Positions 215 to 55,100 of a DNA stretch of 64,000 bases are shown in pieces. Origin of the DNA: Henricia sp. BOLD:AAB3569 (lineage: Eukaryota > Echinodermata > Asteroidea > Spinulosida > Echinasteridae); contig JBBELK010000461.1 of assembly GCA_037783545.1 (NCBI GenBank), forward strand, positions 682,001 through 746,000, given 5' to 3'. Positions within the stretch are counted from its first letter, which is position 1; every line of letters begins with the position of its first letter. The translations under genes were made by a program, and so were the position numbers. Under the pieces are notes generated by a model. That model was not told where the DNA came from, made no database searches, and saw nothing but the letters and a program-made list of their open reading frames with translations.

Positions 215-3200
215 GTCAGTTCTTGGTTCATACACAAAAAAGTACTCCTACAAAAATGACACCGTGGTTTCAACAACTCTGATAATAAGATCACTGTTTA
301 TAACAAGGACAATTTTAGGTGCCAAGTCTTTGGTGCAGAACCAAAACTGAGCAATTTGGTGCAAAAAACTGGTTGTGGACATAATCATTGCATTGGACAG
401 TTGGAAAAGGTTTCTATCTTCCACTTCAGTAAGGTTTTTTTGGTTAAATGGTTGATTACAATTTTGGGGCATTGAAAATCCTGTATATACATACTGGCTT
501 TAAACTAGTCAATATGTTTACACTAATCTTATTGTTCAGTATGAATATGTGACTTCTTTTAGGGACAGTCCAAATCAGTGAGGAACAACTGCAACCGTGA
601 TTCAAGACCACCAGTTGGCTTCATAGTTCAGTTGGTAGGGTGTCTGCACGTTAAGCAGAAGGTCTGCAGTTCGAATCCCGGTGGAGCCAAGTTGTTTTTC
701 ACTGATTTCCCAAACTCATGGACATTTGTCCACATTTGTACCTTCATATTGTTCAACAGAGTTTATCGGAGGCAAGCAATTACCATGAATTCTGCCGACT
801 TTTAGCAAGACTTAAGTCCAACTACCAACTTGGCGAACTTGTCAAAGTGGATAATTACTCGGAGGTCATTGCACTCATTGCAAAGTTCACCATCACCAGT
901 TTACAGGTTAGTTACGTAGTGTGTGGCTACTGTTGTAGTCAAGACCTTCGTGGCCCTGCAAGTCTGCACAAGTCCGTGGGACTAGTCTGTGGGTAATGTC
1001 ACAAGCTGTTTACACGAACTACTGACTTTAAGGCTGCATTCGGGCGTGCAGTTCTCTCTACTCCGGAGTAATGTGTGCGCATTGCACTCTGGTAACATTA
1101 CGCAAATGGCAAGTCCGCAGTCCGCATGCGTAAATGGCCATCAGTCAAGATGGCCGCCTCTTGCCATGACTACACAAAAAACGCTGTTTCACTGCTCACA
1201 AGAAACTGAAGAAAATACAGACTGTAAGTCGTGAGAACCTTTGATGCCATCTGAAACAAACCTTAGTGGGTTGTTGTTTGTTATCGAGTTGACACGTTGA
1301 GCAAATTCACAAAAAATCCCACCCATATTCCGCCATCTTCGTACAAATCACATGACACACGTCGGGAGTAAGAGCACACTCCCCATTTGTCGGGGAGTAG
1401 CAAGAGCATACTCTCATTGACCCGAGTGTCGTTAATCTTGCCGTTCACGCTCGCAGGAGTGTACTCGTGTTAACACGAGTACATGCCCGAACGCAGCCCT
1501 ATACGCTGGATTTAGTATGCAACAACGGCTGGCTATACGGGAATTGAAGCCATGCGCTGGCCATCTTAGTGCTCCCAAGACAATGCTTTGCCTAGACTGT
1601 TCCCCTGTCGATACGATTGCTGGCATTCCACTTAACACATGTACTCTAGTGAAGACAGTATAACCAGTCTAGATAAGGTATTGTTTTGGGAGTACTAAGA
1701 TGGCGGACGGTGGCTTCATTCAGATAGTCGCCTGTGCAGCCCATTCTATTTAGGTCAGTGACATGAACTGTATTTTCTCTCATTCAATGCTTGGTTATTT
1801 CATTGCTCAGTTTTGTAATTCAAAGTGTGTTAACCAATCGCGTGCTTTTGTTTGGTATGCTCATCCTTCGCACTGTCACGTGGCATGTGTATGAACTGAA
1901 ACTTTGCCGTCCCAAAACTTTCCTCTTTGTATAGGTTTGGCAGTTTGCCCCCAACAGCATCCACTATCTGCTTACACTGTGGCAGCGCATGGTGGCGTCA
2001 GTGCCCTATGTTAAGGCCACGGAACCGCATCTCCTTGAGGTCTACGCTCCAGAGGTGACTAAGGCATACATCACATCACGATTAGAGGCCGTTAGCGCGA
2101 TCCTACGGGATGGATTGGAAGAGCCGTTAGATGATAAGGGCATGGTGCAACAACAGCTAGATCAGGTAATGGACAAATATTGAATGTTTAGGAGTGCAAT
2201 AGTAGACAACAATATTGAATGTTTAGGAGTGCAATAGTAGACAACTATTGAATGTTTAGGAGTGCAATAGTAGACAACTATTGAATGTTTAGGAGTGCAA
2301 TAGTAGACAACTATTGAATGTTTAGGAGTGCAATAGTAGACAACTATTGAATGTTTAGGAGTGCAATAGTAGACAAATATCGAATGTTTAGGAGTGCAAT
2401 AGTAGACAAATATCGAATGTTTAGGAGTGCAGTAGTAGACAAATATCATATGGATCAGGTATATGCACAAATCCATTTCTACCTTTTTCGTAGGCCACTA
2501 TAACTGCGGTGCTTCTATAAACTGGGGTCGATTTCACAAAGATTTACGACGCGTCGCAAACACCAAATCCATCGCAACTCGCCAAACCCATGGCAAAATT
2601 ACAAAGGGTTCGGTGAGTTGCGATGGGTATGGTACTTAAATCGACCCCAGGACGTATTGTAAGGGATTCCACACAGTAAACGCGCCCTGCTGTTGGTGGA
2701 CACAAAATAACACACACTTCTGTTTGCAGTGACGACACAATACTACAATGTGTAATCCATACATAACGTGCAGTGTATAGGTTCTTTCATTTAATGCCAA
2801 AGTAGATTGCAGTTCACAGTGCACTGCTACGCCCACTACCCATACGGTGGTGTCTCATTTATATCACGTTCGTTCATCTGAATATCTGCTTGTTTTATGC
2901 AAGTCGCATTGTAAGACTACTCGAAGTAAGGGCTACCTAAGTCATTTATGTAGAAACCAGCCCTATATAAATATAGAAAATTAATCTGATAATAAGGTTC
3001 TCAACAACAATTTTTCATGAATATGACCTTCTCCCCCAGCTCTCAATCATAGGGCGTTGTGAATATGAGAAGACATGCGCATTGCTGTTCCAACTGTTTG
3101 ATACGTCGGCACAGAAATATCAAGAGCTGGTTCAAGCCAATGCTACAGGATTTGATCTGGCGGCACAACAGGGTAACGTTTATCATTCTTCTTGAGTTGG

Positions 3201-6200: not shown

Positions 6201-6858
6201 GGCTTTTTCTTATTTTGGAAAAAGAAATTCGGCAAAGCCTTTTTTCCAGGCCGGAAAAATAAATGGCCAGAAATATTATTTTTAACTCTTCAAGTCCAAA
6301 AAAACGTGGAAAATTGTATCACTTACTGATCAATGATGTCCGAATATGCCCTATGTCATGTATGTACTATGTACAGCCTATGTACATGATTTGCACACAT
6401 GCAGTATGTATGTATCCCGGCCATAATCATTCACGGCTAAAGTACCACGAAACCAGACTATTGATCAGAAGTACATAGACTAAAGAGGGCGCTGTATCCA
6501 TACAGCAGTGGTGCCGGTGACATTGCACACTGTCAATGTACATCTAGGGAGCGCGTGTGGTCTAGTGGGTATGAAGCGGGACTCCCAATCAGAGGTTGGG
6601 GGTTCGAGCCCCACTTCGACCAACGTGTCTGTGTCCCTGGGCAAGCCACTAAATCCCAGTTGCCTCGTCAACCCAAGCGATATATGGGAAGCTGTTAAGG
6701 GGAATGCCACAATCTAACTGCTGATAGGGTTGTGCGCCTGACCAGCAGCCACCTAGTTGAAGCGAAATGGTTCTGGTGATTCCCTGATGGCAGCGGTAAT
6801 AATGGTAACAGCGCCTTGAGCACCCTGCAGGTTGGATATGTGCGCTATACAAATCTAA

Positions 6859-6892
<34 letters not shown>

Positions 6893-9800: not shown

Positions 9801-12800
9801 TCAGCGCACAGCATAGCTACAGGGGGCGTGCGCACCGCGACCGCTGCTGCATGCTACCAGTACCGCTAACCCCCGCCCCCGCTGAGCGACTTCGGATTTG
9901 GATCTGTGGAGAACACTGAAGACGGAAGTCCTCTGCTGCGGGTGGGGGGAGGTGGCTGAGAAATGTAACATTTTATCAGTCAGTAAAGTGTCTGACCACC
10001 TCTTGTGGGAAGGTTGACTACACCAGCCTTTGTAAGACCTGCTTTAGCAGGGTGCACCACTCTGCCTGAAATGCCTCCCTGAGCTCCTGCACTTCAAGGG
10101 TTGTTTGAGAGATACACGGCTGCAGTGGTCAGCTCATCCCATGCCAGTTTAATCAGGGCCCAATTTCACAGAGCTGTTTAAGCGCTAGCTGAAAACGTGT
10201 GCTTACTGTAGCAGAAAAGTTGTGCTAACGTCAAGGCTATTTCACGGCCGCGGCGTGCTTAAGCATGCGCGCGCTTGGAAACCGCTATTGTTGCGTCACT
10301 ATCTTAAGCAAAATTTAGCTCTGCGGTTAAGGCAGGTTTTTAGTTGCTTATACCGTTAACGATGTCTATGAAATAGCCTTACGCTCGGTTAACGGAAAAT
10401 GGGCTGTTAAACAACTCTATGAAATTGGGCCCTGGTTGATAATCCAAGAAAATTAGTTTTCTGAGAGCCCCTTCTTTTTTCACCTAGAAACATACAATGT
10501 CTTCTGGAAGAAATCACTAAAGCAGAACAGTCTTGGAAGAAATTCTAAAATGATTGGTCGATCAGTGCCTTGTTATCCAACACACATCTGTTCTGATAAA
10601 AAGTTTATATTTTAGGAAGATTGTGTTTACATAACACACTATCCGAACTTCCGTTTGTTTTTCAGAGGACGTTAATTGGCTTAGCCAGAGATCTCCGTGG
10701 TATCGCCTTTGCCTTCAACAGCAAGTCAAGTTTCCTCATGCTCTTTGACTGGATGTATCCTTGCAAAACAAAAACTAAAATCATTTTATCCTCAAAGGCT
10801 TTAGAATTGTGTTTGTTGGACCAGTTTGACTTGTCAAGATTGCACTCTATTTGGAGATAGAAGGTGCCAAGAAAACTATTGAAGAAAAAGGGCTATTTTT
10901 CTGTTTTGTGGATTTTATTTATTGAAGTCCTGTGTGTATGTGTATATGTACATATACCTTTGACATGATAATTCCTCCACCATATTCCTTAGCCACTGTT
11001 TAATTAGCTACCCAGCCTACACCCCTATTCTTCAACGTGCTATTGAGCTGTGGTATCATGAACCAATCGTCACGACCCCAATCCTCAAACTAATGACGGA
11101 GTTAGTCCAGAATCGATCGGATCGGCTGCAGTTTCACGTCTCTTCACCAAATGGAATTCTGCTGTTCAGAGAGACGAGCAAGATGCTGGTAGCGTACGGT
11201 CAGCACTTTTCATTTATCTATTTAAAAATTCTCCGTTTTAGGAATTTCACTTTTCAGATTACTAGTAGGGTGGTTTGGATTCGATGTCAAGGCACTTTGC
11301 CATAAGTTGCCTCTCCCCACCCGGAAGTAAATGGGTACCTGCAAGGTTCGCAGCCCCTGAGTGCTTGTGTCAGGCTACCAGGGCTGCATGCTCCCCAGGG
11401 AGGTGTGCCCAATGACCAGGGTAATAATGTTGTAAAGTGCCATGAGTATCCTCTATTCAAAAAATGAAGAATTACTGAGATTAATACTTTGTACATATTT
11501 TCCCAACAGGGACAAGAATACTGACGATAGGAGCTGACATCCCCAAGGACAGAATCTACGCAATGAAATATCCTTTGATTTGTTAGATACAAAATAACCA
11601 ACCTGTGTATGCCTTGGATTATTATTATTATTTCTTTCTGGTATTCATACCAAGGATTCCTCAATAGTGCTCATTGCACTGTCACTCGTAAGCGTGAGGA
11701 AACCCATGAAGAATTAGAAATGGCCAGAGACACCGGGGAATCCCCTTGCTCTTCACGAAAGAATGCTCCGGGATCTTTAAAGTGCGTTACCATTACCTAA
11801 CACACTTGACCAATGGCTTTATATCCCTTCCGAAGGATGGAGCAAGTGTGGTTAAGTGCCTTGCCCAAGGGCACAGGTACCGTAGCCGGATTCGAACCCG
11901 CAACCCCAAGTTTTCACCCATTATTGCGAGTCAATGGCCCTAACCACTCGGCCACGCTACCCCACGGTACAGAATTTGTATAATCTGGATTCACACTGAG
12001 GCTTTTTGCGCGTAAATTTGACGTGTGTTGCTTTGACAAAAAGCGGAAATTTGAAGTGAATTGGCTTTAATCTTTCCTTGACCTTTGACCTCAAGTTGAA
12101 GGGTGTATCTATATGTTTTGGGATGCTGAAAGCGGTGCTTTCTGGTGGATTCGTCAACTTTGGCGTTTTCCAGCTCTACGGGGACAGTTCCCTCGAGGAG
12201 GTCTTACAGATGTTTGTTAAGTTGGTCCTGTCGATACCACATAGCAATTTGCTGGTAGGTTAATTAGGAATACTTAATCCAGTATATTTTACAAAATTAA
12301 ACATAAATTTAGCCCTGCATCATAAAGTTAGTCCCTGTTCACACTGTCATTTCAGTGATCCCATTGACAGGATTATCCCAAATTAAGTCTGAACTATTAC
12401 AACTTTTATGATGTTATTTCCTGTTCACACTGACATTTCATTGATCCGCCAACCCCCCCTCCCCCCTCCCCCCCCCCCCCACCCCCCTCCCCCCCCCCCC
12501 CCACCCCCCTCCCCCCTCCCCCCCACCCCCCTCCCCCCTCCCAAGTTAAGTCTGAACTACTACAACCATGAAGTTGGTACCTGTTCACACTGACATTTCA
12601 TCGATCCTTTTGACAGGATTATCCCAAATTAAGTCTGAACTATTACAACTTTTATGATGTTATTTCCTGTTCACACTGACATTTCATTGATCCGCCAACT
12701 CCCCCCCCCCCCCCACCCCCCCTCCCAAGTTGAGTCTGAACTACTACAACCATGAAGTTATTCCCTGTTCACACTGACATTTTATTGATCCCCTCTGGAC

Positions 12801-15800
12801 AGGATTATCCCAAGTTGAGTCTGAACTACTACAACCATGAATTTGGTACCTGTTCACACTGACATTTCATTGATCCCATTGACAGGATTATCCCAAGTTA
12901 AGTCTGAACTACTACAACCTTCTGGAGTGGCTTGCCAAGGATCACATGGGATTTCTGAGTGGATTGGAACCTCGGGTATTTCTTCACATTCTCTCATCAA
13001 TATCAGAAGGGCTGACGGCCTTAGGTAGGTTTGGAGAGGGTGATTAAAAAGGTTGATGCATGTATGCCATTTGCAATTGACAAATATCAAATTGACACTG
13101 GCAGCCTCGTTTCAGATGCTGAGCCATTGTATTACGTAACGCGTCTTTTCATTTGCAAATTTTATCACAAAAGAAAGCACAGAGACCCTTGTTTTTGATG
13201 GCTATTTGAAATGTCTATATAACAAACAATTTTACTTCATGAGTTGACAAGAAAAACCTTATCCAAAGCATTGATAGTAATGGTAACAAATGCCATGATT
13301 TGTTGCTGTCTAATTGAGCACATTTATGTCGGAAATTAACTACTGGTGATCATTAAAATGCAAAACCATGTTTTTCTTTAAAGGTAGAAAAAGAATTTCT
13401 GAATTATTATCTTTAAGCTTACTTGTTATCAAGATAGTAATGGTAGTAATCATCCTGTGAAATTATTTCGTCTGAATTGCCCCATTCACGAGAATGTAGG
13501 CGATCTTTGGAGCCATTCATTCATGCACAAAAACCGTACATGGATTTTTCAGGGTTTCTGAAGTATTACTGCATCTATGTGGCTGAAATTTCTACAAGGT
13601 AGTTTTCTCGACCTATGCTTTCAATTACCAGTGGAAATCATGCCGTTTTTAACAGTTTACTAAACAAGTATACTACCTTTAAAGGTTTTTGAACCATTGC
13701 TGCATGTAGCTAAGATTTCTGCAGGCTAGTTTACCAACATTCTATGTAATATCGCTCCAGATATTTGTAAAAGGTTTCATCATGCTAATGATACAATAGG
13801 CCTTTGATTAAAAGCTAGTAAGTAATCGTTTTCTTCTAAATCACTGAACAGATACGGTAGTGTGCACTGGCTGCTGTGCTACGCTGGACTTTGTAGTGAC
13901 ATTTCTCCTCAAGAAGATTTCTAAGACAACGGGCAAGAAATCTAAGGAGGAAAATGACAGTTTCCCAAGAATTATGGTGGTTACCCCAGCGATATTACAA
14001 CAGGTAGGCAACGCTAAAGGAAGGTTTAAAGCGGTACTGTGGCCAAGTGGTATGGGTCACTGACTCGCAGCATTCGGGTACAAACTCGGGGTTGCGGGTT
14101 CGATAACCGGCTGTGGTACCTGTACCCTTGAGCAAGGCACTTAAACACACTTGCTCCATCCTTCAGAAGGGATGTAAAGCCGTTGGTCTAGTGTGTTGTG
14201 TAACGCACTTAAAAGATCTCAGAGCACTCTTTCGTAAAGTATCTCTGGCCGTCGGATGCCAATGGCACCACCCACCTATGTATCTCACTGTTTATGTGGG
14301 GTATTAGCTTCGTAAAACCCATTATAATGTGCAGCGCATGTGAACATATCCATATGGAATATGCGCTATATAAATGTAATAATAATTTTAAATAATAATA
14401 GTTTCCCAAGAAGTTTGTAACACTGTCTTTACTCAGAATGTAGGCACTCCCACTCACATGGGCTAAGCAATGCACCTACTCGGCACCAAAAACAGGACGC
14501 AGGCTCTGTCCATTTGTAACAGTTTGTAGTCTATCTTTAATTTCCTAATAATGGCTTAATTTGTATATTTTTGTTTGTCCTTTATGATAATTCAGATGTT
14601 ATCTACAGTGCTTAACATCATCATGTTTGAGGATTGTCGCAACCAGTGGTCCATGTCGAGGCCACTTCTGGGGTTAATACTTCTCAATGAAGATGTGAGT
14701 AACAACCTTTTCCACTTTTTCCATTTTGACTAAAGAACTAATAAAACGGGGTGCAGTTTGCTGTATTCATTGCAGAAAGTTAAATCATGTAATGTTTGTC
14801 ATTGTGGGACGCTATGGGTGAAAAAAAAAAATGTCAAATAGGTCGTCAAACAGGGAATGTGGTATAATTAAACATTTTACACATTTTACACATTTTTACC
14901 ACTGGAGGCATCACGTATTGGTTGTCTGTCTTGTACAAGCGCATAATCAATGCTGCAAGTGAGAACCACTTGTGGATGTGATTTTTGGAAGGACGTATCG
15001 TATGTAAAAGGGGAAATCAGACTGGCGTGGGGAGTCAGTTGGGTGCAGCAGTGATTGCCTTCCACCTCTGTGGCCCTTGTTCGAATCCTGTCCGGGTCAG
15101 TATGTGTATTGGGTTCTCAGTCCCTGCTTGATTCCGTGAGTTTTCTCCTGAACGTGTGTATAGGTGTTTTCCTCCAACCTCTAAAACTGAGCATTTCTTA
15201 ATCATCTCCTCTTCACAGGTTTCTTCAGGCTTATGAGCTACAGTGCAATGGGCACTTTTGCAGAAGCCAATGAATCAATACCAGAAAGCATTAATAATAA
15301 TAGCTTAAGAATCTTTATTGATGTTGAAATTGTTTGTTTTTTTGGACAGTACTTCACAGAATTGCGGGAGCGCATCATCAGTGCCCAGCCGGTAGAGAAA
15401 CAAGAAGACATGAGGACGTGTTTTAAGAACCTGATGGACGGTATTGAAGCAAACCTTAAATCCAAAAACAGGGATCGGTAAGTGCCTTGTGATGTAACGT
15501 TGTGACGTGACTTGTGACGTAACGTAGCTTGTGACGTAACGTAGCTTATGACGTGACTTGGCACAGGGTCAAACCCGTAGAGAAACAGGATGACATGAGG
15601 ACGTGTTTCAAGATGGACGGTATTGAAGCAAACCTCAAATTCAAAAACGGGGATCGGTGAGCACCTTGTGACGAGACATCTGACTTGTGACGTAACGTAG
15701 CTTGTGACGTGGCTTGGAACTTGGCTTTTTGACGTGACTTTAGAAGTGCCTGTTGCAAGCACAAGTGCCACTGATGCACAACTGACAGTGCCCTTTGGTG

Positions 15801-16698: not shown

Positions 16699-17114
16699 TT
16701 AAAGAAGAAAACCTGCCCCCTGTCATGGCTACTGGTGCACAGGGTCTATAGGGAAGAGGGACATGATACTTGGGCACTTCCTGATGTAGTTATTATTATT
16801 ATTTCTTTCTGGTATTCATACCAAGGATTCCTCAATAGTACTCATTGCACTGTCACTCGCAAGCGTGAGGAAACCCATGAAGATTTAGAAATTAGAAATG
16901 GCCAGAGACACCGGGGAATCCCCTTGCTCTTCACGAAAGAATGCGCTGGGATCTTTTGAGTGCGTTATCGTTACCTAACACACTGGACCAACGGCTTTAC
17001 ATCCCTTTCGAAGGATGGAGCAAGTGTGGTTGAGTGCCTTGTTTATTCAAACAGTCTGTTGTCATCAAGGCCTGGTCTTGTATTCACGCAAATGTTTAAA
17101 TACCCATTTTTATT

Positions 17115-19558: not shown

Positions 19559-20224
19559 TCATGTATTATAATGATAATATGGCCTGATTGTTGTTTCATC
19601 CAATTATTTGCTCAGTTCAAGTCAGTAATTGTTTTGCAAATAAGAACAAATTCCATAAAAATGCAGTTCCACAAAGTTTGATTCAGTCATATACAACTCG
19701 AATTTTTCAAAGTTTCACTGATTAAATTTTTGTATTATTATTTTTGTATTATTATTATTACTTTTTGGTACTGAAACCAAGGATTCCTCAAATGTGCCCA
19801 TTGCACTGTCGCTCGCAAGTGTGAGGAAACATACCCATGAGAAGAATTAGAAATGGCCAGATAGAGACACCGGGGGAATCCACTTGCTCTTCATGGGACC
19901 AACAGCTTTACATCCCTTCTGAAGGATGGAGCAAGTGTGTTTAAGTGCCTTGCCCTTGCTCAAAGGCACAGGTATCGAATCTGCAACCCCAAGTTTTTAC
20001 CCGAGTATTGCGACTTGAGAGTCAGTGATCTTTCATCCATCCATCTGTCTGCAGGAGTAAAGTAACTGCAAAAACTCATTTAAAAATATTATAATTGCAA
20101 CACTACATGTAATTGTAAGATGCATAATCACTTATGTTGAATGCCTATGACTTGAAAATGTTTATGCACCCCCATTGATGTTAATTGTTACCCCTCCCAC
20201 CTCCCCGTACCCTTTTTCTCCAAG

Positions 20225-38340: not shown

Positions 38341-38346
38341 CACGTG
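38341..38346. promoter_or_regulatory. CACGTG E-box upstream of NHP2
   Basis: Perfect E-box 91 bp before the ATG. Myc/Max-type factors commonly act on ribosome-biogenesis genes through this motif; use here is inference. Confidence 0.35.
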
Positions 38347-38436
38347 TAGAAATCTTGCACAAAAAAGCGAACGGTCGTCTGGGTTTCTTTCATAGACGCA
38401 TATGGACGATTTACGTGAAACGTGAACGGCAAAAAG

Positions 38437-38605
38437 ATGAAAACACCAAAGAAAAACAAGGAAAATGGCGAGGCTACAGAAGTTCCTGGAGAAGATGAAC
38501 AACAGGAGCTAACGTACGAAGAGTTGGCGAAACGAATTGCGCCAATTGCCAACCCTCTTGCATCGAAAAAACTCACCAAGAAACTCTACAAAACGATCAA
38601 GAAAG
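38437..38605 (+). CDS. NHP2: NHP2 exon 1
   Basis: Reads [20 protein letters not shown], then [20 protein letters not shown]; ends phase 1 at aagaaag before the atypical donor gttctc. Confidence 0.85.
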
Positions 38606-40389
38606 GTTCTCTCTCCCACATTATCCAAAGTTTACCGCGTTCTGTGCAGTCGGCTATGGGCGCTTGTTGAGTTATTGGACAACTCGACCGTAATTTTTCT
38701 CACTCAAAAAATTGGGTTTTTCCATCATCTGCACTTAACGTTGTCTGATGAGTCATTTTAAAGAAAATATTTCTAATCTTCTTAGTCTTACCTAAAATTT
38801 CACATTTTTCTTTGAAAACACTTGGGATTTTATCGCCATAGAAACAGTGCATGGACTCGATGGAGTCTCAACTGGTAAACGTTCAGTTGATGATAAAATA
38901 TAGCTAATTTCAGTAGTACAACCATGGAGCTATAAAAAGGAGTATAACTAGGGGAAAATTCCGGTAAGAGTTGAGAAGTTGATAATTATATTTTTCTTTA
39001 AAGGAGCTTGTTCAGATTTTTCTAGAAAGTGGATTTTGTTCTAACCCAACAACTATGCTGACATTTACGTTAGTCTAGTATGGGTACAATTTCTGGAACT
39101 GTTCAACTTTAAACAAACAAACATATTTGTTTTCTTTTACTAGCTTCCAAAGTGAAAATGCTGAGAAGAGGCGTGAAAGAAGTTCAAAAATTCATCAGGA
39201 AAGGAGAGAGAGGGTGAGTTAATTATAGAAATATGACATCTTCAGTCTTGTAGTTTCTTGACAAGAACAAGTCGAAACTCCAGCGTGATACTCCGTCCAA
39301 GATGTCTAGAAGGTCAAGGCAATTTACTCATTCATATTCTGCTCCGTTTTAAAACCAAAGTTGGCACTAATATTAGCATGTGTGGTCTAGTGGGTACACA
39401 GCCGTGTTTGTGATCGATGGGTTATGGGTTCGAGCCCCACTTGTGGCAACGTGTTTGTGTCCGTGGGCAAGACACTTATAAACTTTTAACACAGTGCCGC
39501 CATCTTCCTTTTTCTTCAAAAGATGGAATCGCGATTCCAATTCCTAAATTGAAATCAATTCTTATCGTCTTTAGAGAGGATTTTCCCAAGCCTCGTCAAT
39601 TTGTGTTGAGGAAAAAGTAAATATAGCGTTATATGGAGTTTTTACCCCAGTGTCATTCTCAACATTTGTGACAATTTTTCCTCTATACAGGTTTGTCGTC
39701 TTTGCTGGCGACGTCACACCAATTGAAGTCATGTGCCATTTACCCGCTGTATGTGAAGATAGAAACATTCCTTATGCTTATGTACCCGCAAAGAAGGTAG
39801 GTAACCCGTATTTTTCTGAGAAAAAAGGTTCACTGACTCACAGAAAAATTATCAAGGCATTCACCATGAATGTCGCCTGCAATGGCCAAATGCCACCTGT
39901 TGGTGAATTCATGAGCTGAAATATTTATTTTTATCTGACATAATAATAATAACTATTCTTATATATCGCTTTATAACTGAAGGATCAAAGCCCTGTTGCC
40001 ATTATTACCGCTGCCATCAGGAAATCATCAGAATCATTTCACTTCATCTAGGCATGCCGCCCGGCCGTGGCACACATCCTATCAGCACTTAGATTGTAAT
40101 ATTCCCCCTAACAGCTCCCCAATTATCGCATGGGCCGACGTGGCAATTAGGATTGAGTGTCTTGCCCAGAGACACAAACACGGCCATAGTGGGACTTGAA
40201 CCCAGACCCAACCTGCATTTTAAGAAATGCTTTAACCTCTCAACCACTTTTTTTCCCATTCAGGATTTAGGAGCAGCTATGGGTGCCAAACGTTCCACAT
40301 GTTGTGTCCTCATTAAAACCCACGAAGACTACGTCAGTGCCTATGATGAATGCTATGAACTGATTAAGCAGCTTCCTCCACCGATCTAA
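38437..40389 (+). CDS. NHP2: H/ACA ribonucleoprotein subunit NHP2 (complete)
   Basis: Exons 38437-38605, 39144-39213, 39691-39796, 40264-40389 encode 156 residues (human 153). NHP2 is an L7Ae-family RNA-binding protein. With dyskerin, NOP10 and GAR1 it forms nucleolar H/ACA snoRNPs that guide pseudouridylation and support telomerase RNA. Visible signatures: [55 protein letters not shown] then [25 protein letters not shown], and a C-terminal QLPPPI. The N-terminal Lys/Glu-rich tail varies in the family. The start is the ATG that gives the family's usual length. The first donor (gttctc) is weak. Confidence 0.93.
39144..39213 (+). CDS. NHP2: NHP2 exon 2
   Basis: Acceptor tttactag, donor gtgagt. 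Reads [20 protein letters not shown] then ER. Confidence 0.92.
39378..39480 (+). mobile_element. SINE family 1, 5' fragment
   Basis: Head gcatgtgtggtctagtgggt and B-box gggttcgagccccac, broken off after gggcaagacactta. Confidence 0.65.
39691..39796 (+). CDS. NHP2: NHP2 exon 3
   Basis: Acceptor ctatacag, donor gtaggt. Reads [20 protein letters not shown], then the segment [15 protein letters not shown]. Confidence 0.93.
39937..40230 (-). mobile_element. SINE family 1, minus copy
   Basis: Reverse complement of the 6545 element: AAT-type tail first, then gctgccatcag, and gggacttgaaccc near the end. It abuts the NHP2 exon 4 acceptor. Confidence 0.6.
40264..40389 (+). CDS. NHP2: NHP2 exon 4
   Basis: Acceptor cattcag. 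Reads [20 protein letters not shown], ends QLPPPI and TAA at 40387-40389. Confidence 0.93.
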   Translation, partial: DLGAAMGAKRSTCCVLIKTHEDYVSAYDECYELIKQLPPPI

Positions 40390-41060: not shown

Positions 41061-41309
41061 ATATTGAGCTCGTGCCAATGACGTCATTTTGGGAGTAAAA
41101 CGATGCCGCGTCGTTGTGGAAGCAATGTGCGTGCGCGTTGTGTGTGTCCATAGCGTGCGTAACGCGCTATGCTGAGGCTCCCATTGGTGAACTAAACCGC
41201 GTTGCGCCCACCAGAGAGACACACAACGCGCACGCACATCGCTTCCACAATGACTCAGCATTATTTGACTCCCAAAATGGCATATTCGCACGTGTTCGAA
41301 AGGGGTCAA
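41061..41309. mobile_element. Foldback element family D, copy 2
   Basis: Same sequence and ends as 5420-5650, with a short internal insertion around gtccatagcgtgc. Confidence 0.65.
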
Positions 41310-41837: not shown

Positions 41838-41982
41838 TAGAGCTTTAGCACCGGCGGCCATGACAGTGGGCAGGTTTTCTTATTTAAATGTGTAACAATA
41901 GAACCACAAACACCTACTCATGCATGACACACGGTGACAATGTGACTGCCCCCTGTCATGGCCGCCGTGCAAAGGCTCTATA
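41838..41982. mobile_element. MITE family C copy
   Basis: Near-identical to 4914-5060; uninterrupted and with a single central TTAA, so it is the empty-site reference for the insertion at 16402. Confidence 0.7.
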
Positions 41983-42961: not shown

Positions 42962-43148
42962 ATGACAAAGGGTGCAGGGCGTCTAAAAAGCGGTGCGCCA
43001 AAGAAAATCAAACGATGGAAGAAGGGCCAGAGTTGTGTGAGCAATCCGACCGTGAACAGACACCGCGAGGCGGCGGCGGGTTCTCGCTTTCGCCCCGGTG
43101 CAACTGTGCACAGTGATCGCGGCGTGCTGCAGGGAGATGGGCGGAAAG
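42962..43148 (+). CDS. RRP12: RRP12 exon 1
   Basis: Begins [20 protein letters not shown]; the start aligns with the family N-terminus. Donor gtgagc, phase 1. Confidence 0.9.
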
Positions 43149-46100
43149 GTGAGCGACTTTTGAGAAAGAAAAAGAGGGGAAATAATCGAGTAGTTGATTA
43201 TAATGGCTTCAGTCAAGGACCTTGTGTACAAAACATATGGCTAATGAGACTGGATGTGGGAGAGACAGGTCCTCGACCACAGTGATTAATTGATTTTTAT
43301 TGCTTTTGTCGCTCCTATGCCCATCTTGTTTATGATGTACATTGTTGGCATGAATAAATAATAATAATAATAATGAAAAAAATGATGGAAAAACCCAAAT
43401 CTTGGATAACCAAATTTAAGATTTTGTGAGGAAACACTTGGAAAATTTGTCAGCTTGTCTCGTATGTTTTGCACACAAGGTCTGAACTTGAAGCCATGAT
43501 AAACTTCTCAATTCTTTACGCCTAATTATACCTTTTTTTTTTACCTTTCATTAAAAGTTAAGAAATAAAACCACTTTATGCCTATTTGAAATTGAGCACT
43601 GAGATGTGGCCCAATTTGGCAAAATCAAACAATTATCCCATTTTTCCCCCAGGTGGCATCCAGTTAACCGAGACGGCTCTAGCACATCACAATGAGGAAT
43701 CGGAAGACTTCAGCATCGCTGACGATTCAACATCTGCTGGTGGAGAGACTTACAAGACGTTCTTAAGTGGTGTTAGTGACTGCTCCAATCCTGCATTTAA
43801 TAAAGTCAAACGATACTGGGAATCCAATGCAGCATCACACAAAGAGGTAAGGGGGATTCACACTGATCATTGTTCACGCATTAACACGCGTCGCCTCAAG
43901 AAAATGCATTGTGGAGGGAATTTGGTGGGAACTAGCCAAGTGGAAATCACATAATCACAGAAACTCTCTGCTTCCCAAGTTAATTTTGTGGTTTTCAGTA
44001 CATCATTTCACTCTAACTTCCAAGTTCTAAGTGTATTCTTATTCCGTTATTAATCTTGTATGTATTTTGGCTGTAATTTTAACTGTTCTTTTCTGAACAT
44101 TCCGTTTTGCTGTTAGGAAAACGTTTCCTGCAGCAACCACAGGCTTTTGGACTGTTTTTTGGTCTCTGTAGTACTGTTTTTGAACATACATTTGTAGCCT
44201 TCATGAACGCTGTATTACAAAGGCATTAATACTGTTCTTTTTGTTATCTCTAGGTCTGTGCTGTATTGGCTGCAGTCACGGAGGTCATTAGGGAACAAGG
44301 AGGCAAAGAGACGGAAACGGAGTACTTTGGAGCATTGGTAATAATTACTTTAGATTAACTTTTTTTTAAAGGAACAAAAGACAAACCTGTGTGCGCGAAC
44401 CTGATTGGCTCGCATTGTTAGCTATTCAACGCAACACGCACACTGTGCCATACGATCATTAGCATTTTGCTACCTCTCAGGTAGTGAAATTCCGTCCTCA
44501 ACACATGGTGGTGATCTCGTTCTGGCGCAAAACACCAGCAGCTGCGAGGCCTTAAACAAAGGCTAACAGCCGACTGACACGAAGGGCCTTGGTTTCGGTG
44601 CGGAAGTGCACAGAACGGGCTGATCTGAAATTTGTCTATTGCCATTTTTGGGAAGTTCATAACGACTTCTCAGTGGGTCATATTTCTTGTTCTTTGTAAA
44701 ATGTATGAGTTGCATTTGTTTGCCACAATGTCTCTTGCTTCTTATACGTATTTCTTCTTAAATTTCCATTAAAATGAAATCTGAGGAAAACATCCATATA
44801 GTTGCCCCCAAAGGGGCTCTGAATAAAGCTTATAAGTCATGACATAAAAAGTCACATTGATGTGGTTTTGAATTCTTGCTAGATGACAGCTCTTGACAAC
44901 GTCGACAGCAAAGAGTCCTTGTCAGCCATCTTGTTTCTTCTAAGTCTTGTTACTAGCCTAGCATTCCCGGGTGGGATTTGAACCTTTGCCCTCCTACATA
45001 GAGGTCATGTGTTTATATTGTTTTTGCTTCTTGCTAGATGACGGCTCTTGACAATGTCGACAGTGAGGAGTCCTTGTCAGCCATCTTGTTTCTTCTAAGT
45101 CTTGTAATTAAAAGGTGAGTTTTAAAATGCACTGCAAACATGTTTAGAACAAAGTGCATTCCTGTGTCAATACACGAATAAGTTGCATGCCATAACGTAA
45201 TTATTTGCTCATTTTTTAGACAAAATGGCAGTGTCCTCACTATAAGGCATTAAAGCAATTGCCATTCTTTGTAAAGTTTGTATCCACTTTTCAGTGGTTT
45301 ATATTTCTTGTCCTTTATATAATAATAATGTGCGAGTTGCATTTGTTTGGCACAATGTCTTTTGTTTCATGAGTATAGTTGGATAAAATATTACACTTTT
45401 GGACCCCAAATTTATAGAATTTCTTATTACTCTTTGTTAGGTTAATATCAACTTTTTTGTAAATGTATTTGAAGTGTATCATCATGAACTTAAAAAAAGA
45501 AAATCATCTGCATTACAGAGTGCCAGCCTCAGTGATACGGTTGAAATTCTCGGCCATCAGCAAATCACTGCTAGACATCATGGCATCTCAGGGTAACCAA
45601 ACGGGAACGACGTCTGTACGATCTTGCCTCGTGTGTCTGAGCACCACGTTACGACAGCAGGATTTCGCTGCGTGGAGTGAGCCCTCTACATTACAGGTGT
45701 ATCATGGGATACTCAGTTACATAATACACCAAAAACCAAAGGTATAGACATTTATTGAGTTCATTATTTTTATATAAATGGTTTGCTCGTTCCATGGTGT
45801 ATCATTTATTTATTTATTCACCACATCCAACAGCGGAAGGACTGCAAATTACAGGAATGGCATCAATTAACATATATATTTGAATAACTATCAACTTCTA
45901 AGTTGAATTAGAAACTACCAGAGACACCGGGGAATCCCCCCCCCTTGCTCTTAACGAAGAATGCTCTGGGATCTTTAAAGTGCGTTACCGAAACCTAACA
46001 CACTTAACATCCCTTCCGAAGGACGGAACAAGTGTGATTAAGTGCCTTGCTCAAGAGCACAAGTGCCATTCCATCACGGCCCGGAATCGAACCCACATTC

Positions 46101-49100
46101 TAGTACTGGCACAGGAACTTGAGTTCGACGCACCAGACCGCTCGGCCATAAGACCCCATCATTCTCAAGACCTGTTTGATTCGGCAGGTTGTGGGTTCAA
46201 ATCCAGACTTTACTTTGCTGCATGTGCCCTTAGGCAAGGTACTTTGCCATATTTGATTAAACTTGTTTCTGAGAAAAATTTACATAGCACCTTCGTTATG
46301 CATGACAGTGACTGCAAAAGCTTCTGTGTGCTAAAGATTCCCACAGATTGACTGTAGTTTTGTTTTCAGTCAAAAAGTGGAGAAATTGTTCGCATCTCTT
46401 TGTTGCCGGTATTTGTATCCAGTCTGCTTTCAATCAGTGTCTTTTTTCTTGTAGATTCGTAAGGCAGCTCAACACGCAATCTCCGCCATTCTGAAAGGCA
46501 GTAGTTTCATGATCGTCCATGATTCGCCACCAGCCCATCCTGCAGCAAGCGCCACAGCCAAATTCTGTATACAGAAGATAGAAACTTCTGGAGGTAAGAC
46601 GACCAATGCATAGTTCCGAGATTGCCCAGTTAACCCTGCCCCTTAGATATTGTTGCTATGTGCTCACAAGCCATCGCAAAAAAATGGCGACACTACGTAC
46701 AAACCAACGGGACTCGGCATGGAAAGCACAGATTCATTGGAGAAAACTCAAAAGTATTTATGTTTTGGGGTCGACAGTTACCGTAGCACACACTGAGCGA
46801 AGGGCTAGTAATGCAGGGATGACATATATTTCATAAAAATGCGCTTTCCTACCTTTGAACTGCGAATCGCCCGACATTGAAACCAAAATTCACCCGGTCA
46901 CTGGCGCGTACAACATACAAACTGTATGGGCAGAAAATCGCGTGATTTGTGTGATGATTGCATCACTTTGACCTATGTGGGCGCCGTCTGCTAGCTCTGT
47001 TGTGATTGGTCGCGGGTTCGGCTTGATTGACAGGTCGGAACTATGCATTTGCCAGGTGCAGACAATTGACCTTTATCATGGTGCGTCCATTTTTGTCTTG
47101 TTTCCCATAGTACGTGTCGGGTCTGCAGGACCACGTGATAGCACGTATAATCTCCCGTTGAGAATCACTGTCCATGCTGCACACTCCCTTGATCGTGCAA
47201 CGCCTGTGCCATTTTGATGCACTCAATGAACAACTTCAGAACAGTCCAAACTGAATAACAATCTGACTCATCTCACACAGTTGGGTCAAATTTGTCAACG
47301 AATAAAATTCAACTTTCCATAGACGGAAAACTCATGTTTACTCATAACAGTTAGAAAGGCATTAAAGCATTTACTTGCAGGTCAAGTGAGCACACATGAC
47401 CACAGCTGTGGACCATGTTTGTTTGTTGAATATATGAACTTTATAATAATTCACATTATTATCATCAATCACCCAAGGAAACAAATTCTTAAATTGACGC
47501 TACTTTCGCAGGTGAGGGTGAAGTGGCAAAGACGATGCACGTCTTAGGATTGCTGAAGGATATCATGCCTTGCCTGCCCCAAAACAGCTCGAAGTCGGCT
47601 TGTGAGACGATTCTAAGACTGATGACACTCAGTAATGTGGTAAGTGATTAAACAGTCATGGTAAAGTACCTTGCTCATAGACAAGTGTCATGAAGAGTAA
47701 TCAGTGTAAAATGTGTTTGTTCAAAAGCAATTTTTGTTAACAAAAATCACCTTTGCTTATGAATGTCTTGATAATGAAAGTTGGCACATCCTTTAAGTTA
47801 GCACAATATTATGCTGCAGTATACAGCTGGAGTCAGAAGTTTACATACATTTGGCAAAAAATATTCAACTGAAATCCGTCTTTTTTGGTGGTTAATCAGT
47901 AACAGTGTCTGCATTATTTTTACATTTTCAAAATATTTGTTTCGAAACAGCAGCCGATTTCCCGAAACTTACGCAGTTGCGTAAGCCCACTTGCGCAACA
48001 TTTTATTGCGTAAGTCGCGCAATAATTTAGCGGTGATAACACGCAAGCTATGGGGCTTGCGCCGTTTTTCAAAAGTTGCGCAAGCTGCGCACTCTTTCGT
48101 GAAATTGGCTGCTGATTCCTTGTACATTTAATTCATTTTGTTTATACCCATAAATTACCGAATCACAGGCTTAATGTACTTTTAAGATAAACTGCTATCA
48201 AATTAAAACCAGGCTTTGATTTTTCACCTTTAAGCTGATAACATCGCTGTGCATGCAAGCCCTACATGGAATGTTCCAAGCTAAGCCTCAGGCTTCGTCT
48301 CTACCATCCAGCTTGAATGCTCAGCTGGTAAACGCGTTGTACGACTACCAGCCGGGAGAGAATGACGTCCAACCAATGCAGGCCTGGCTTGCTGTCATGG
48401 AAACGGCACATACTAATCTAGCAAGGTATTCATATTGTCCAAAGATGTATACGAAAAGTAAATGCTGTATAAACAAAACAAAAAAAATCAAGTTTTCACA
48501 CTGGGGATGTCTCTTTTCTAAGACCTTTAAATTTTAACTTGAGTCGGATTTGCTATTGTGTATTTGATGCTTTCACCAAGGCTTGGGATGGATATGTCAT
48601 TAGTACTATACCATTGTTTTAACCCATGAACCGTCAGTACTACTAGTACAAATTTGTACCATAAGGCTATGCATTAGAAAAATTGAAGATTAAAAAGTTA
48701 AGTAATATTTATGACCATTTTTGTTGGGGGCAAAAGGTCTTGAAAGGTCTCGGCAAGCCCTTTTCAAGACCATAAACAAAAAATACCTTAGAAATTCACT
48801 ACAGTTTAGATCATGTGACCAAATGTAATAATGGGATAGCAATTAAGCATGGCATGTGTGTATTGTTTTGCCCTTACCCGACGTAATTATTAACACTGTA
48901 TACTCGGTGCTTTCCCGAGATACTATGAAAAAATAGAGATACAAAATTGCAGCTACCTTTTACATGTGATCATTTTGTTGTATGTTCACTCCACTTAGAC
49001 TCAACCAGAAGCTGTGCATCAGTCATTTACCTCGCCTCTTCAATGCTGCTATGGCATGTTTCCTGTCACAAAAGAGTGAAATTGCTGTCGCTGCTTATCA

Positions 49101-52100
49101 AGTCATGAAGGTGAGTGACCTTTGACACCAAGGCCAGTGACCTTTGACACAGGCCAGTGACCTTTGACACCAAGGCCAGTGACCTTTGACACAGGCCAGT
49201 GACCTTTGACACAGACCAGGTGCATATTTAAATCTGTAAATTTTAGGGGTAGTAATAATAATGTAGACATCTTGATCGATGTTTCTCCTAATAAGTGCGC
49301 AGTTCAAGTCCATTTTTTGTATCATGTATTTTGTCGTCAGACCGTGCTGTATGACTGCGTCAAGCCAGCTTGTGATTGGCTAGCCAATGAGCTTCAAGGT
49401 AACTTCTCAACTCCGGTGCACAAGATGTTCCAAACTGTAGAGGGCGGTCTTTCATACAAATATCACTCGTCGTGGGGACTGGTGCTACAAGTCATTCGGG
49501 TTTTCTTTGAGGTAATGACTTGTGACAATTAATTTGGTTTATCGTTGGAGTCGTGTGTTTACCTAAACCTGCTGCCATTTTGACTTGTTGAGTTTGTGCT
49601 TGGGTTATGAGCCAATGAAATATTGTCTTCTGCGGTAATTTGATTTTTATGTGCGAAGAAATGTTTCAGGATCATGCGATTGTTTTAGGGTTATCCGGTT
49701 CATAAGTGTAACGTCACACGCGGCGTGCGCACCACGGTAAAAGGGGGCATTTTGGCAAAACAGACCATAATTTCCACAAAATACCTTTGTCTGGTCTCAA
49801 AATAAAAGAAATAAGTTTAAGTTGTTTTGAAGAGATAACTCAGGCCCAAAAAGGGTTACAAATTGTGTGACAACGTGCCTTTCTAAAAACCCTGTGTACA
49901 AATTTATAATATACGCTCGTAACCGGGACGGCCTAAAATGTAACACAAGTGTCTGCCCGGTTACGAGCGTATAATGGAAATTTGTACACGGGGTTTTTAG
50001 AAAGGCATTTTGTCACACTATTTGTAACCCTTTTGGGGCCTAAGTTATCTCTTTTTTATTTTGAGACCAGACAAGGTATTTCCTCGAGAATATGGTCTGT
50101 GGAAAGACCCAAATAATGGTGCGTGTACCACGTGTGATGCAGTCACTTACGAACCGGATAGTGAACAAAGAAATTACAACATTTTTGAGCTCGACCATAA
50201 CTTTCAGAAATGTTTAACAACTTCACAGGTTATTGGCAAGGAGGGGTGTCAATTCATGAGGAAATGTCTGCAGTCCATGTGTGATCTGAGAAGCACACAT
50301 CACTTCCCCTACACCGCTGAATTGGATCGTGCCATTGGAATGGCTGTGCGCACTATGGGGCCTGACTTCGTCCTTGGGGCTGTTCCACTTCAGATCACGG
50401 GGGATGAGTAAGTGGCTCTGAGAAATTGCTACATGTATCTTGCCTTACATTAAGTACTGTTATATTGCCAAAGGGAAAGCATTATGGCAATGGCGTCGGC
50501 ACTGTCTCAAAAAGATTGGGATGTTATGAAATTCGTAAAAATGATGAGCAGAGTTGAAGCTACACTGGTAAATGGAAGTTGATCTCAGCTAAGAATGGAT
50601 TCACACTGAGCTTTTTTCGTAGATAATTTCTTTGTGCAATGCTTTGAGAAAAAAGCATCACGGAGAGAACTTGGAGTAAAACAATATACTGAAAACCACA
50701 GAATCAACTTGAGCAGATATGTTTTTTGGGGTTTTTAGTGCGTCGTTTCATTCCAAATTCTTCCACACTGCTTTTTCTTGAAGCAATGCATGTTGCATTT
50801 ATACAGGAAAAGTTTGTTGACACTGAGGACTGTCCAGTGGAACTTTGCAGAAAATATCATCACAACACTTTTTCATTGTTTTTGAAATCTGTCGCACATG
50901 CACATTTTAAAAACCTGGCTAATATTCAGTACATTGTACTACTATTTCTAGAGACAATTACGGCTTTCCACGGAGCTGGCTTCTACCCGTCATACGAGAC
51001 AATGTTTGTAACACTGAGCTGCAATTCTTCACTTCGTATTTCCTGCCTCTTGCTGCCAAGCTTAAGGCAAAAGGTATTGTTGTAGCATAGGCGTAATAGT
51101 GGGGGCGGGGCAAAGATATCAATTTGCCGCCCCCCACTTTTTTGCCTTCCAAAATATGATGTAATTCATATTTTGTCGGCAAAATCATGTTACTGTCGGC
51201 AAAAATAATTTTTTTTAATGATACTAATATAACACCTCTGATAAAACGCCACGAAAATGGCAATGCTATTACATTATATTACATGTATGTCTATACAAGC
51301 TGTTGTATCACTCACCCGCTCACCCGCATTCTCATCGGTAAATTTTCAAGGATGTCATAACAAAATCACCGATCTTTTGTAAGCTAATTTATCCGTTCCA
51401 TAAAGCACTGCAGTGATTACACCAACCTTTTTGTTTCCTCATCCAAATTGGAGATTGCAACTTTCCGTTTTTATTCAAATGGATAGTAACTTTGGGAGGT
51501 ATTTTATATGATTCTTAGGTAAAAAGGAAATCCATTTTCTGGAAAAATCGGAACATCAATGATTTTGAATGTCTCTTTTCAGCCACTGAGTTTGAGCAAC
51601 ATGGCCGCAATGTAGAAAGCAAGACCTATAACATCCTGCAGTCCCAGATATGGTCACTGCTTCCAGGGTTTTGTAAAGACCCTACTGATGTGTGTCCAGG
51701 ATTTAAAGGAATTGCTCGTATTCTTGGGTCTGCTCTCAGCGATCGGCCAGATTTACGATTGGATGTCTGCGCTGCGATTCGGCACCTCGTCACTCGTAAT
51801 ATGGAGAATGGTGAGTTGTGAGGGCGGTATACAGGTTACTTTCATTAATTGTGCTCATTGTTGGCTCTGTACTCGGCATATTGATTGCTTTCCGGTGACG
51901 TCACGCCTTTCATCCACCATTTTGGTTGTCATTTTTAATGACCCACGTGGCCTGAGTGATAACCGGCAAAGAGAGCAAGAAAAGCGCATTGGTTGCACTT
52001 ACCTCTGTTGCTTAACCTTGCTTTATGTTGTTGCGCCATGGCTGTTGTATCGATAAAAATGTATTTCTTCAGGCTAAAAATTGCGATCAAGTAGAAGCAC

Positions 52101-55100
52101 TTTCGTTCTTACAAGCTGAGTGCATGCTCAATAATTTGAACGTATCGCAGCGCGCGCGTGCGGCATCTTCGAATGAAAATACGCTGGCGTGTACGCGCGG
52201 GACCATTGACCACCAAACATTTCCGGATGTTCTACGTCGCGGAAAGCAATCAATAGACGTCATATGGACCGATGCAATAGTTACCTTAGTTCATATACGA
52301 GTAATTGTATCCACTCGCTTTAATATATGCAAACATCTCATTTGGCACTGGCAAGCTCTGTGGTTGAGTTAAGACATCTAGTATGCAGAGGGTTGTGGGT
52401 CTGAGTCCCACACAAGCACACAGTGAAGTTTTTAGCATGTGTTTCTGGAAAAAGAATTTAGAGTGCCTACTGCGTCATGTAAGGGCAAATTTAAATTATT
52501 TTAAATTTAACTGTTTTTGGTGTTTTTTTGGTCCAATTTTTGTGTTGCTTTTTAAAATTGTGTGTTTACATAACCCATTTGGAAATGTACTAGACATGTG
52601 CTTGAAGAAGTTAAGATCATAATTAATTCCTTGACCTTGCAGACGTGAATCGGACGGAGCTATCCCGCTTTGCCAAGAACTTCCTCCCCATTTTCTTCAA
52701 TCTCTACACGAGTGGCAACGCTCGGGAGGACATGACACTTGCATCCATTCTGGAGACGGCAAAAGTCTACTTGAAAATCGCTGATAAGAAGGTATTGTTT
52801 ATATTCTTTATCTGGAGAGCAAAACTAAACATGTAGACCTGTTTGCTTTAAGGTTTCACTCTAAAATTAGCGGCCTCACGTTGTGACTTTAGCAGGATCT
52901 TCTTCTTTTGCGTTTGAAGAAGACTGCTTGCTAGGGTCATGAGGACGCTAATTTGACAGTGCGGTTTTACTGCTCGTTGGTAAACAGTTTGCAACAGTCT
53001 TGGGTATTAATTATCTTTATTTTTATGGTCTTGTCATTTTTGTCAAAATCTAGTGGCGATATTTAATTTTTTTTTCCTAACTTCAATTTTTCGGCAGTGG
53101 ATCTGCAATCCAACGAATACAAAAAAACACCTAATAAGCACACACTCATGAACATGCTTTGTTTTTCCCTTTAGTTGATAATCGGCCTTAATGTCAAACT
53201 GGCCTGTAAGCTGGCCATTGGCCAGTGACCAACACTCATTCATGAACATATTTTATGCTTTTCCCTTCAGCTGAGCCTGTTTGACAAACTGGCCGGTAAG
53301 CTGGCCACTATGGCTAGTGACCAACACTCATTCATGAACATGCTTTATGCTTTTCTATTTAGCTGATAATCGGCCTTTATGTCAAACTGGCCGGTAAGCT
53401 GGCCACTGAGGCCAGTGACCAACACCCCCTCATGGATCTTGCTATTGCGCTAACGCCACACCTGGACGAGGATTACATGACCAAAATGTTTGGTATCGTT
53501 TCAATTCTTCTCAAGGTCAGTCTACCAAACATTGCTCTTAAAAAAAACGGTTCTTAAAAACAGGAAATGTGGTATAGACCGTATCGAATAGCCGCCATTT
53601 CATGGGGCAGTTTCTTTGTTCCTTTAGGACATGCATGGTTGCACATATTGTGCTTCCATTGTTGAAAGGTTTAAGTAACAAAAGGTGCCCCACGAAATGG
53701 CGGCTATTCGATACGGTCTATTTCAAAATAACAAGAAATTTCGAATTCATGCCCTATAACAGGCTGCTCGGCAAAACCAGTTATTTCACATGTTTTATGA
53801 AATGTCTTTTTTCTGGAATGGTTACAATTCACAAATTTCCTGTACATATCTGTCCAACACATAATGCTATCCTTCTAGTTTCTGCATCAGCTCAAGGTCA
53901 GACACATCTTTTGATGATAGTTTTTATGAGCTTTTGTCTTGACCAGGACAAATGTTTGTTTTTTGTCCGAAGATTAAAAATAAAAATAAAAAATAAATAA
54001 GGGTGTCCCATCTGTAACGTTACACCAGTTTTGCTGCTTTTTCACTTTGATCTTTTAACTGAAACAATTAACCTGCTGAAAAATACTTGATAACATTGCC
54101 ACTTCTCAGAAGGTATGCTGTACACTGGTTCACAATCTGTAAAGATATGGTTATTACAGGTCACTTAAAATTGACACTCTGGTTGACGGATATTTCATGT
54201 TATTTTGAAATACAGTAAACCTCGGATAAGTCGGATCCAACGGGACCGAGCAATTTTCTCCAACTTAAGCGAAAATCCGACTTACGCGAAGATGAAAAAA
54301 CGCATAGGAATTCATTGATCTCCAACCACCCAATGGTCACCCAATGGTCAACAGTAAAAAAAGCATGAATTCCAACACCAAAACATTTTATTTGTACACT
54401 ACATTTTCATTTTCATGACTTACTAATAGTAATACGGCAGAAAATCGTAAGCATTTTGCCGGGCGCGATCGGGCTTCGAGCGTCGCCATCATCTGATCAT
54501 GGCCATGCAGTACATACATGTACACATGTGTACTGCTCAGCCCACCCACCTTGGCCAATGAAAAATGCAGCCTGTGATCACGTGCGCACATAAAAACTGC
54601 TGCTGATATCAAATGCACATAGTATATGTACGTACGTGTACGGTACATACCATCGATATTTATATACTGGATGAAGTATGCAATAGCAGTTGGCTATACG
54701 AGAATTGAAGCCACGCGCCGGCCGCCATTGTACCCCACAAACAATGCTTGGCCTAGACTGCTCCCCGGTCCATGCGATCGCTTCGCATTCCACTTAACAC
54801 ACGTATACGTAGACCATGTAGACTAGTGAAGACAGTATGACCAGTCTATAGGCACGGCATTGGCGGATGGTGGCTTTAATTTTAGACATCGTTGCTTCAT
54901 CCAGTGATTAAATATCGATGGTACAATGTATATATACACGCACACATTGTACTGTATGTACTGTACAGTGTACAATTAAGTTCATGCAGGCGGCATTTCG
55001 GGAAGCCGCATGGGGCGGCCGTAAAACTGGCAAATCCCTCAACTCCCCGCAGTAAACTGATGTGAAATTAATATACGAACTTTCGTCAATCCGACTTAAA

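Follow-up and report, generated by a model that had tools for sequence, protein, structure and literature searches.

Tandem copies of exon edges in the XPO7, PUF60 and RRP12 genes of Henricia sp. and their likeness to amphioxus 'mirages'

Why should the edges of exons be copied in tandem in several unrelated genes, and is the process that copies them aimed at splice sites? The question is raised by a 64,000-nucleotide stretch of DNA from Henricia sp. BOLD:AAB3569 (contig JBBELK010000461.1, positions 682,001 to 746,000; hereafter the window), which carries the genes XPO7, PUF60 and RRP12. In a preliminary description of the window, nine exon edges in these three genes were claimed to be tandemly copied. 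Eight of the nine stood up to analysis, six as junctions that are duplicated and two as junctions that an array abuts, while the ninth, at PUF60 exon 8, was not supported. That several unrelated genes are affected was confirmed for XPO7, PUF60 and RRP12, and papers on amphioxus describe the same for other genes under the name 'mirages'. We consider it probable that the arrays are such mirages, that is, short local tandem duplications (units of about 20–180 bp) that came to span or abut exon–intron junctions by chance in a minisatellite-prone genome and were then filtered by selection.

The junctions were taken from gene models in which 50 exon cores were located and the donor–acceptor pairs were solved by phase, absence of stops and consensus scores. 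From 46 exon-to-exon steps tried, 43 were kept (GT-AG, phase agreeing), giving 43 donors and 43 acceptors, or 86 junctions. The XPO7 J–K step was retained despite a weak donor, the XPO7 L–M step had no solution, and the 1–2 steps of RRP12 and of an NHP2-like gene were dropped as uncertain. The real exons matched homologues and joined in consistent phase without the decoy copies, and the models needed no extra intron. The three genes that carry the arrays are:

1 to 16.2 kb, plus strand: exportin-7 gene (XPO7), part only (Pfam PF25795, Exportin-7-like TPR repeats, matched by a 522-residue piece, E 2e-97)
About 21 to 35 kb, plus strand: PUF60 (top solved-structure match PUF60, entry 7q8a, E 6.6e-85)
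From about 43 kb to past 57 kb, plus strand: RRP12 (homologue match, E 2.5e-140)

Repeats were detected with Tandem Repeats Finder (TRF), by blastn self-comparison, and by a seed-and-extend scan that looked up to 1500 bp away for direct repeats, which was used in place of blastn because of a concern that blastn loses near-diagonal matches. Under identical rules, the scan found 71 local direct matches versus 18 local inverted ones at a score of at least 56, and blastn at a score of 50 found 40 direct versus 9 inverted; repeats as such are more numerous than chance. The seed-and-extend matches fell into 12 clusters, of which six hold a junction within a repeat copy and two start 3–6 bp inside a donor. 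Local repeats crossed 6 of the 86 junctions, with at least 6 bp on each side and the splice dinucleotide included, namely four acceptors (XPO7 N, 12886; PUF60 7, 30965; RRP12 4, 45038; RRP12 15, 53363) and two donors (XPO7 Q, 15478; PUF60 3, 27849), all on the plus strand. At two further donors, XPO7 C and RRP12 9, the array begins 3–6 bp inside the intron and the junction copies are degraded; among the eight, only these two arrays end at the donor. The eight arrays are:

2166 to 2475, plus strand: XPO7 exon C donor (2166) with array and degraded donor copy (TRF, 9-mer search, alignment)
12321 to 12921, plus strand: XPO7 exon N acceptor mirage, with decoys at 12371, 12617 and 12803 ahead of the real acceptor (12886) (TRF, repeat scan, junction alignment)
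15389 to 15720, plus strand: XPO7 exon Q donor mirage of only two copies with a unit of 179 bp, the real donor at 15478 and the decoy at 15657
27809 to 28151, plus strand: PUF60 exon 3 donor mirage, with two decoys (27980 and 28137) after the real donor (27849)
30008 to 31042, plus strand: PUF60 exon 7 acceptor mirage, with three near decoys (30683, 30777 and 30871) and an outlying one (30071) ahead of the real acceptor (30965)
44857 to 45114, plus strand: near-whole duplicate of RRP12 exon 4; real exon 45038–45114, acceptor of the upstream copy 44883
49111 to 49219, plus strand: RRP12 exon 9 donor (49111) with array of 20–22-bp units from 49114
53139 to 53434, plus strand: RRP12 exon 15 acceptor mirage, with decoys at 53175 and 53271 ahead of the real acceptor (53363) at a spacing of 90–98 bp

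The same junctions emerged from a gapped search with each junction's 60-mer, run against 60 distant controls per junction. Nine of the 86 junctions scored at least 40, all over their controls: the eight supported ones and the RRP12 exon 4 donor. The match crossed the junction in six cases and did not in XPO7 C, RRP12 9 and the RRP12 4 donor. Twelve junctions beat the best of their 60 controls, the additional three being the PUF60 4 donor, the XPO7 R acceptor and the RRP12 15 donor, with scores of 22–32; the last two were barely over their controls. At PUF60 exon 8, the alanine-coding piece (31300) proved to be a short GCT-rich match that formed no cluster in the repeat scan and showed no excess over controls, the exon's junctions scoring 21 versus control maxima of 29 (31384) and 31 (31486).

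Where an acceptor is copied (four cases), the decoys precede the real exon, which forms the last copy of the series; where a donor junction is copied (two cases), the real exon comes first and the decoys follow it downstream. The repeated stretch reaches into the exon by 34 bp in XPO7 N, 40 bp in PUF60 3, 69 bp in PUF60 7, 72 bp in RRP12 15, 73 bp in RRP12 4 and about 89 bp in XPO7 Q. In six of the eight cases the repeat runs 34–89 bp past the AG or GT, which does not support the earlier claim that array ends coincide with these boundaries.

The most regular copies were found at PUF60 exon 7, where 94-bp units occupy 30606–31033 and decoys match the real acceptor at 50 of 50 bases 188 and 282 bp away. 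Over 64 bp, the three near decoys show 98–100% identity to the edge of the real exon, but they have a different 3ʹ end in common, which suggests that the units were probably homogenised after an older duplication. Over 75 bp, the outlying copy is 88–92% identical to the near decoys. It is set off from the main array by some 500 bp of different sequence (30083–30600), as though an older array had been interrupted by an insertion.

For XPO7 exon C, TRF reported an array of 8.3 units of 33 bp at 2172–2446. The listing of decoy copies gave none for this exon; a second, degraded donor copy, GATCAG|GTA, lies past the array at 2453–2461. The 9-mer GATCAGGTA occurs on the plus strand of the window only at 2160, on the exon edge, and at 2453, beyond the array, so that the array seems to be flanked by two donor copies. 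The alignment of the second copy scored 27; the best of 3138 control placements scored 25. The XPO7 exon N array also holds two partial copies without an aligned acceptor and with C-rich inserts; these C-rich tracts, at 12453–12542, occupy the place where the acceptor would be.

In RRP12 exon 4, the acceptor and 73 of the 77 exon bases are copied once, 155 bp apart, giving two copies only. Mutually exclusive exons were rejected here as a first choice, as the upstream copy has no good donor at its copied edge and the real exon has one; against this rejection, a weaker donor exists 88 bp on from the decoy. Two stretches on either side of the exon (44647–44741 and 45268–45368) are 621–627 bp apart and 79–88% alike, as if a larger and older duplication had taken in the exon. 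At RRP12 exon 9, two units have AAGG with CC in place of the donor's GT, and the other units differ there; the decoy listing gives a single copy for this exon, without an aligned junction.

In total, 15 copies were listed, and the junction could be aligned in 12; AG or GT was intact in all 12, the remaining three (two of XPO7 N and one of RRP12 9) being unaligned. By simple consensus weights, 9 of the 12 decoys equalled or exceeded the real site in score, and three scored lower (XPO7 N 12371, XPO7 Q 15657 and RRP12 4 44883, the last by 5 bits). When 14 decoys (the 12, 53271 and 2458) were read as extended exons, a stop was met within 2–33 codons in 14 of 14. As random intron stretches of 83–282 nt held a stop in 78–99% of trials, the stops behind the decoys are no sign of design. 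The copies look like functional splice sites, yet are probably ignored.

Whether the repeats are aimed at splice sites was assessed with two nulls, one in which all 86 junctions were rotated through the gene region and one in which the clusters were relocated, at thresholds of 40, 50, 56 and 70. Six clusters duplicated a junction, versus 4.06, 3.79, 3.41 and 2.93 expected by rotation (p = 0.19, 0.14, 0.084 and 0.037, respectively); with relocation, p was 0.18, 0.13, 0.076 and 0.030. The number of junctions inside repeat copies did not rise (6 versus 5.37–4.01 expected, p = 0.46–0.23, rotation). Crossing by local repeats was about as frequent at junctions (6 of 86) as at other positions (19, 18, 17 and 15 of 303 at scores of 36, 40, 50 and 60; Fisher p = 0.49–0.31). 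When crossing was not required, 9 of 86 junctions versus 19 of 303 other positions lay in local repeats at a score of 40 (Fisher p = 0.14), and 3 of 86 versus 14 of 303 at a score of 70.

Repeat cover at a score of 40, profiled with the unsolved XPO7 L–M stretch excluded, was 3.5% in exon interiors, 9.9% at 20–40 bp and 8.6% at 0–20 bp on the exon side. On the intron side, it was 9.1% at 0–20 bp, 8.4% at 20–60 bp, 12.4% at 60–150 bp, 12.1% at 150–300 bp and 3.7% in deep intron. The cover thus had no peak at the junction and stayed level between 40 bp on the exon side and 300 bp on the intron side. A junction-targeted excess is not clearly above chance. Within this window, clusters touching a junction were raised at three of the four thresholds, and junctions inside copies and crossings were not.

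Given the level cover across the edge and the absence of a rise in crossings, we read the pattern as a local duplication process that is not keyed to AG|GT, with exon interiors cleared by selection. Observed directly were the copies themselves, the splice dinucleotides that they carry, the extent to which they have diverged and the fact that they lie on the intron side. Purely intronic arrays of a like kind were also seen in the same genes, at 56723–56784 and at the following two places:

28530 to 28629, plus strand: PUF60 exon 4, intronic direct repeat starting 9 bp inside the donor (28521); absent from the preliminary description
32656 to 33243, plus strand: intronic minisatellite, 11.7 units of 50 bp (TRF, repeat scan), 67 bp upstream of PUF60 exon 10 (33310)

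The minisatellite copies no junction and is the background process without an exon edge. A first small duplication would arise by slippage or error-prone repair, and unequal exchange would then add units and homogenise them. Selection would clear duplications from exon interiors, so that they are retained at edges and in introns. Those that include an edge may stay recognisable for longer, one of their copies (the real exon) being constrained, and a mild edge excess could arise for this reason. Selection against extension into the exon could account for arrays that stop just inside a donor. The decoys would be ignored by splicing because each copies only one of an exon's two good sites, and exon definition would favour the real pair. 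Real and decoy copies were more alike on the exon side than on the intron side in 11 of 13 pairs (equal in one, lower in one), which lends this account weak support, given that the comparisons are non-independent, the differences are often small and gap columns (10–12 on the exon side in three pairs) went uncounted.

Several results weigh against this account. At the strictest threshold, junction-duplicating clusters exceeded both nulls (6 versus 2.93, p = 0.037, rotation; 6 versus 2.95, p = 0.030, relocation). Clusters touching or spanning a junction within 10 bp numbered 9 versus 6.71, 9 versus 5.13, 8 versus 4.80 and 8 versus 3.82 at the four thresholds (p = 0.15, 0.015, 0.038 and 0.005, rotation). 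On these counts some targeting may exist, one window being a weak test. Exon definition, too, may not suffice on its own, since several decoys have a possible partner within 400 bp: two PUF60 7 decoys and one more could pair with the real donor to give an exon of 197, 291 or 385 bp, and an XPO7 N decoy could likewise pair with the real donor (222 bp). For an RRP12 15 decoy there are donors 121 and 219 bp further on, for the RRP12 4 decoy there is the donor 88 bp on (score 7.3), and for a PUF60 3 decoy there is an acceptor 88 bp upstream.

The touching clusters are also an argument for the strongest rival, in which edges are hotspots of duplication because splice motifs are themselves acted on, by slippage at AG|GT or by break repair at transcribed exon edges. 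Eight or nine clusters touch a junction where 3.8–6.7 are expected (p = 0.005–0.15), two arrays begin 3–6 bp inside a donor, and a third begins 9 bp inside. Such a process, which the preliminary description had suggested, nevertheless appears unlikely to us: junctions inside copies (6 versus 4.0–5.4 expected, p = 0.23–0.46) and crossings (6 of 86 versus 15–19 of 303 elsewhere) are not raised, the cover lacks an edge peak, six of the eight repeated stretches end 34–89 bp inside the exon, and like arrays exist that are purely intronic.

Much less probable is the idea that the arrays mark stages in the gain or sliding of introns, as has been proposed for the amphioxus globins and for tandem genomic duplication generally. 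Its support is published: intron gain was hypothesised from similar arrays (PMC3087553), and in potato a duplicated intron–exon boundary led to a new intron (PMC4974935). In the window, nothing shows a gained intron. No sign was found that a copy could be spliced as a new intron without ruining the protein: read as extended exons, 14 of 14 decoys lead to a stop within 2–33 codons, and the real exons join in phase without decoys; the stop argument is limited, a stop being likely anyway (78–99%) in random intron stretches of these lengths.

We regard as slighter still the chance that the decoys are regulatory, that is, poison splice sites whose competition sends some transcripts to nonsense-mediated decay, with the PUF60 exon 7 array as a self-regulating switch. 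PUF60 is a factor in the recognition of 3ʹ splice sites, and would then control itself; all 12 aligned decoys keep AG or GT, 9 of the 12 equal or surpass the real site in score, and use of any of the 14 leads to a stop. Such stops are, however, expected by chance, and like arrays are carried by XPO7 and RRP12, which are not known to be splicing factors. Moreover, the published cases reportedly leave splicing undisturbed (PMC3087553).

An assembly artefact, in which alleles of a very heterozygous animal were joined in tandem, is about as improbable, for although amphioxus heterozygosity reaches 3.2–4.2% (PMC12500494), one published mirage was misassembled in a draft genome (PMC3087553), PGBD5 repeat numbers were unequal between two assembly versions (PMC3902484) and the two-copy cases, XPO7 Q and RRP12 4, are what a mis-join could give, six of the eight cases have at least three copies with a fairly regular period, both two-copy cases exceed allelic divergence (RRP12 4, 87% over 99 bp; XPO7 Q, 78 of 86 aligned exon bases), and the PGBD5 repeats were upheld by resequencing (PMC3902484).

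Judged by its genes, the window is eukaryotic DNA; its G+C content of 41% agrees with that of amphioxus, although this is no diagnostic trait. No match was found when a phage collection was searched with positions 28000–32000, and viral and prokaryotic collections gave pattern matches with no relative confirmed. A search of solved structures with XPO7 gave no match at E 0.001. The fourth gene, which the preliminary description (naming three) had left unnamed, lies between PUF60 and RRP12; its name is our own assignment from a Pfam match and should be read as putative. Other features are:

38419 to 40386 (38.4–40.4 kb), plus strand: NHP2-like gene (Pfam Ribosomal_L7Ae, L7Ae family)
617 to 689: tRNA match in an XPO7 intron (Rfam RF00005, 43 bits)
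11619–11903, 16790–17081, 19746–19992, 31977–32241, 45994–46159 and 57817–57912: short dispersed elements in either orientation, whose copies contain tRNA-like stretches and reach 97% likeness to one another, by appearance similar to short interspersed nuclear elements
21567–22381, 34670–34960, 41085–41279 and 49830–50053: close inverted pairs of 80–182 nt, 83–94% complementary, which look like foldback elements or miniature inverted-repeat transposable elements

Within a single window, 8 of 86 junctions have such an array on them or next to them. PUF60 decoys equal to the real acceptor make these genes natural tests of how the spliceosome chooses among equal sites. Automatic annotation may also make false exons of the copies, as the authors suspected for lancelet PGBD5 (PMC3902484).

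In the literature that we searched, with most subscription papers outside the search, mirages were reported gene by gene and no genome-wide count was found. The amphioxus cases affect acceptor and donor sides, have units of 10–160 bp and were reported not to interfere with splicing (PMC3087553, PMC3902484). Troponin C is cited as a further case (PMC3902484). Of the papers found alongside, in the parts available, one on amphioxus huntingtin mentions tandem repeats in scaffolds and no mirages, and one on earthworm metallothionein describes intronic minisatellites, not junction copies. In amphioxus VCBP3, as here, introns hold complete or partial exon copies, some with splice sites, that resemble the adjacent coding exons, whereas the available part of that paper does not describe regular tandem arrays (PMC2632668). 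The potato case and the Rogers model, as cited in PMC4974935, share with our arrays a duplication across an intron–exon boundary and differ in the new intron, none being seen here. For the amphioxus Adh3 mirages (Canestro 2002, as cited in PMC3087553 and PMC3902484), length and somatic instability were reported, whereas we had one sequence. Closer is lancelet PGBD5, in which imperfect repeats of 60 and 108 bp overlap or abut splice sites as they do here; that case concerns one gene, and its JGI gene model made an extra exon from the copies, which the authors omitted (PMC3902484). The closest parallels are the mirages of the amphioxus globins BflGb6 and BflGb9, whose tandem duplications likewise span either a donor or, with the intron end and the exon start together, an acceptor, comprise several units that are homogenised inside the cluster and diverged at its border, and include many decoys that keep AG or GT (PMC3087553). 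They differ in their genes, in unit length (150–160 bp versus about 20–180 bp here) and in having been studied by reverse transcription-PCR, where we relied on sequence. Because the anatomy is the same as in these published cases, we file the arrays of XPO7, PUF60 and RRP12 with the amphioxus mirages, as what their structure indicates they are: a new set of members of a known phenomenon.

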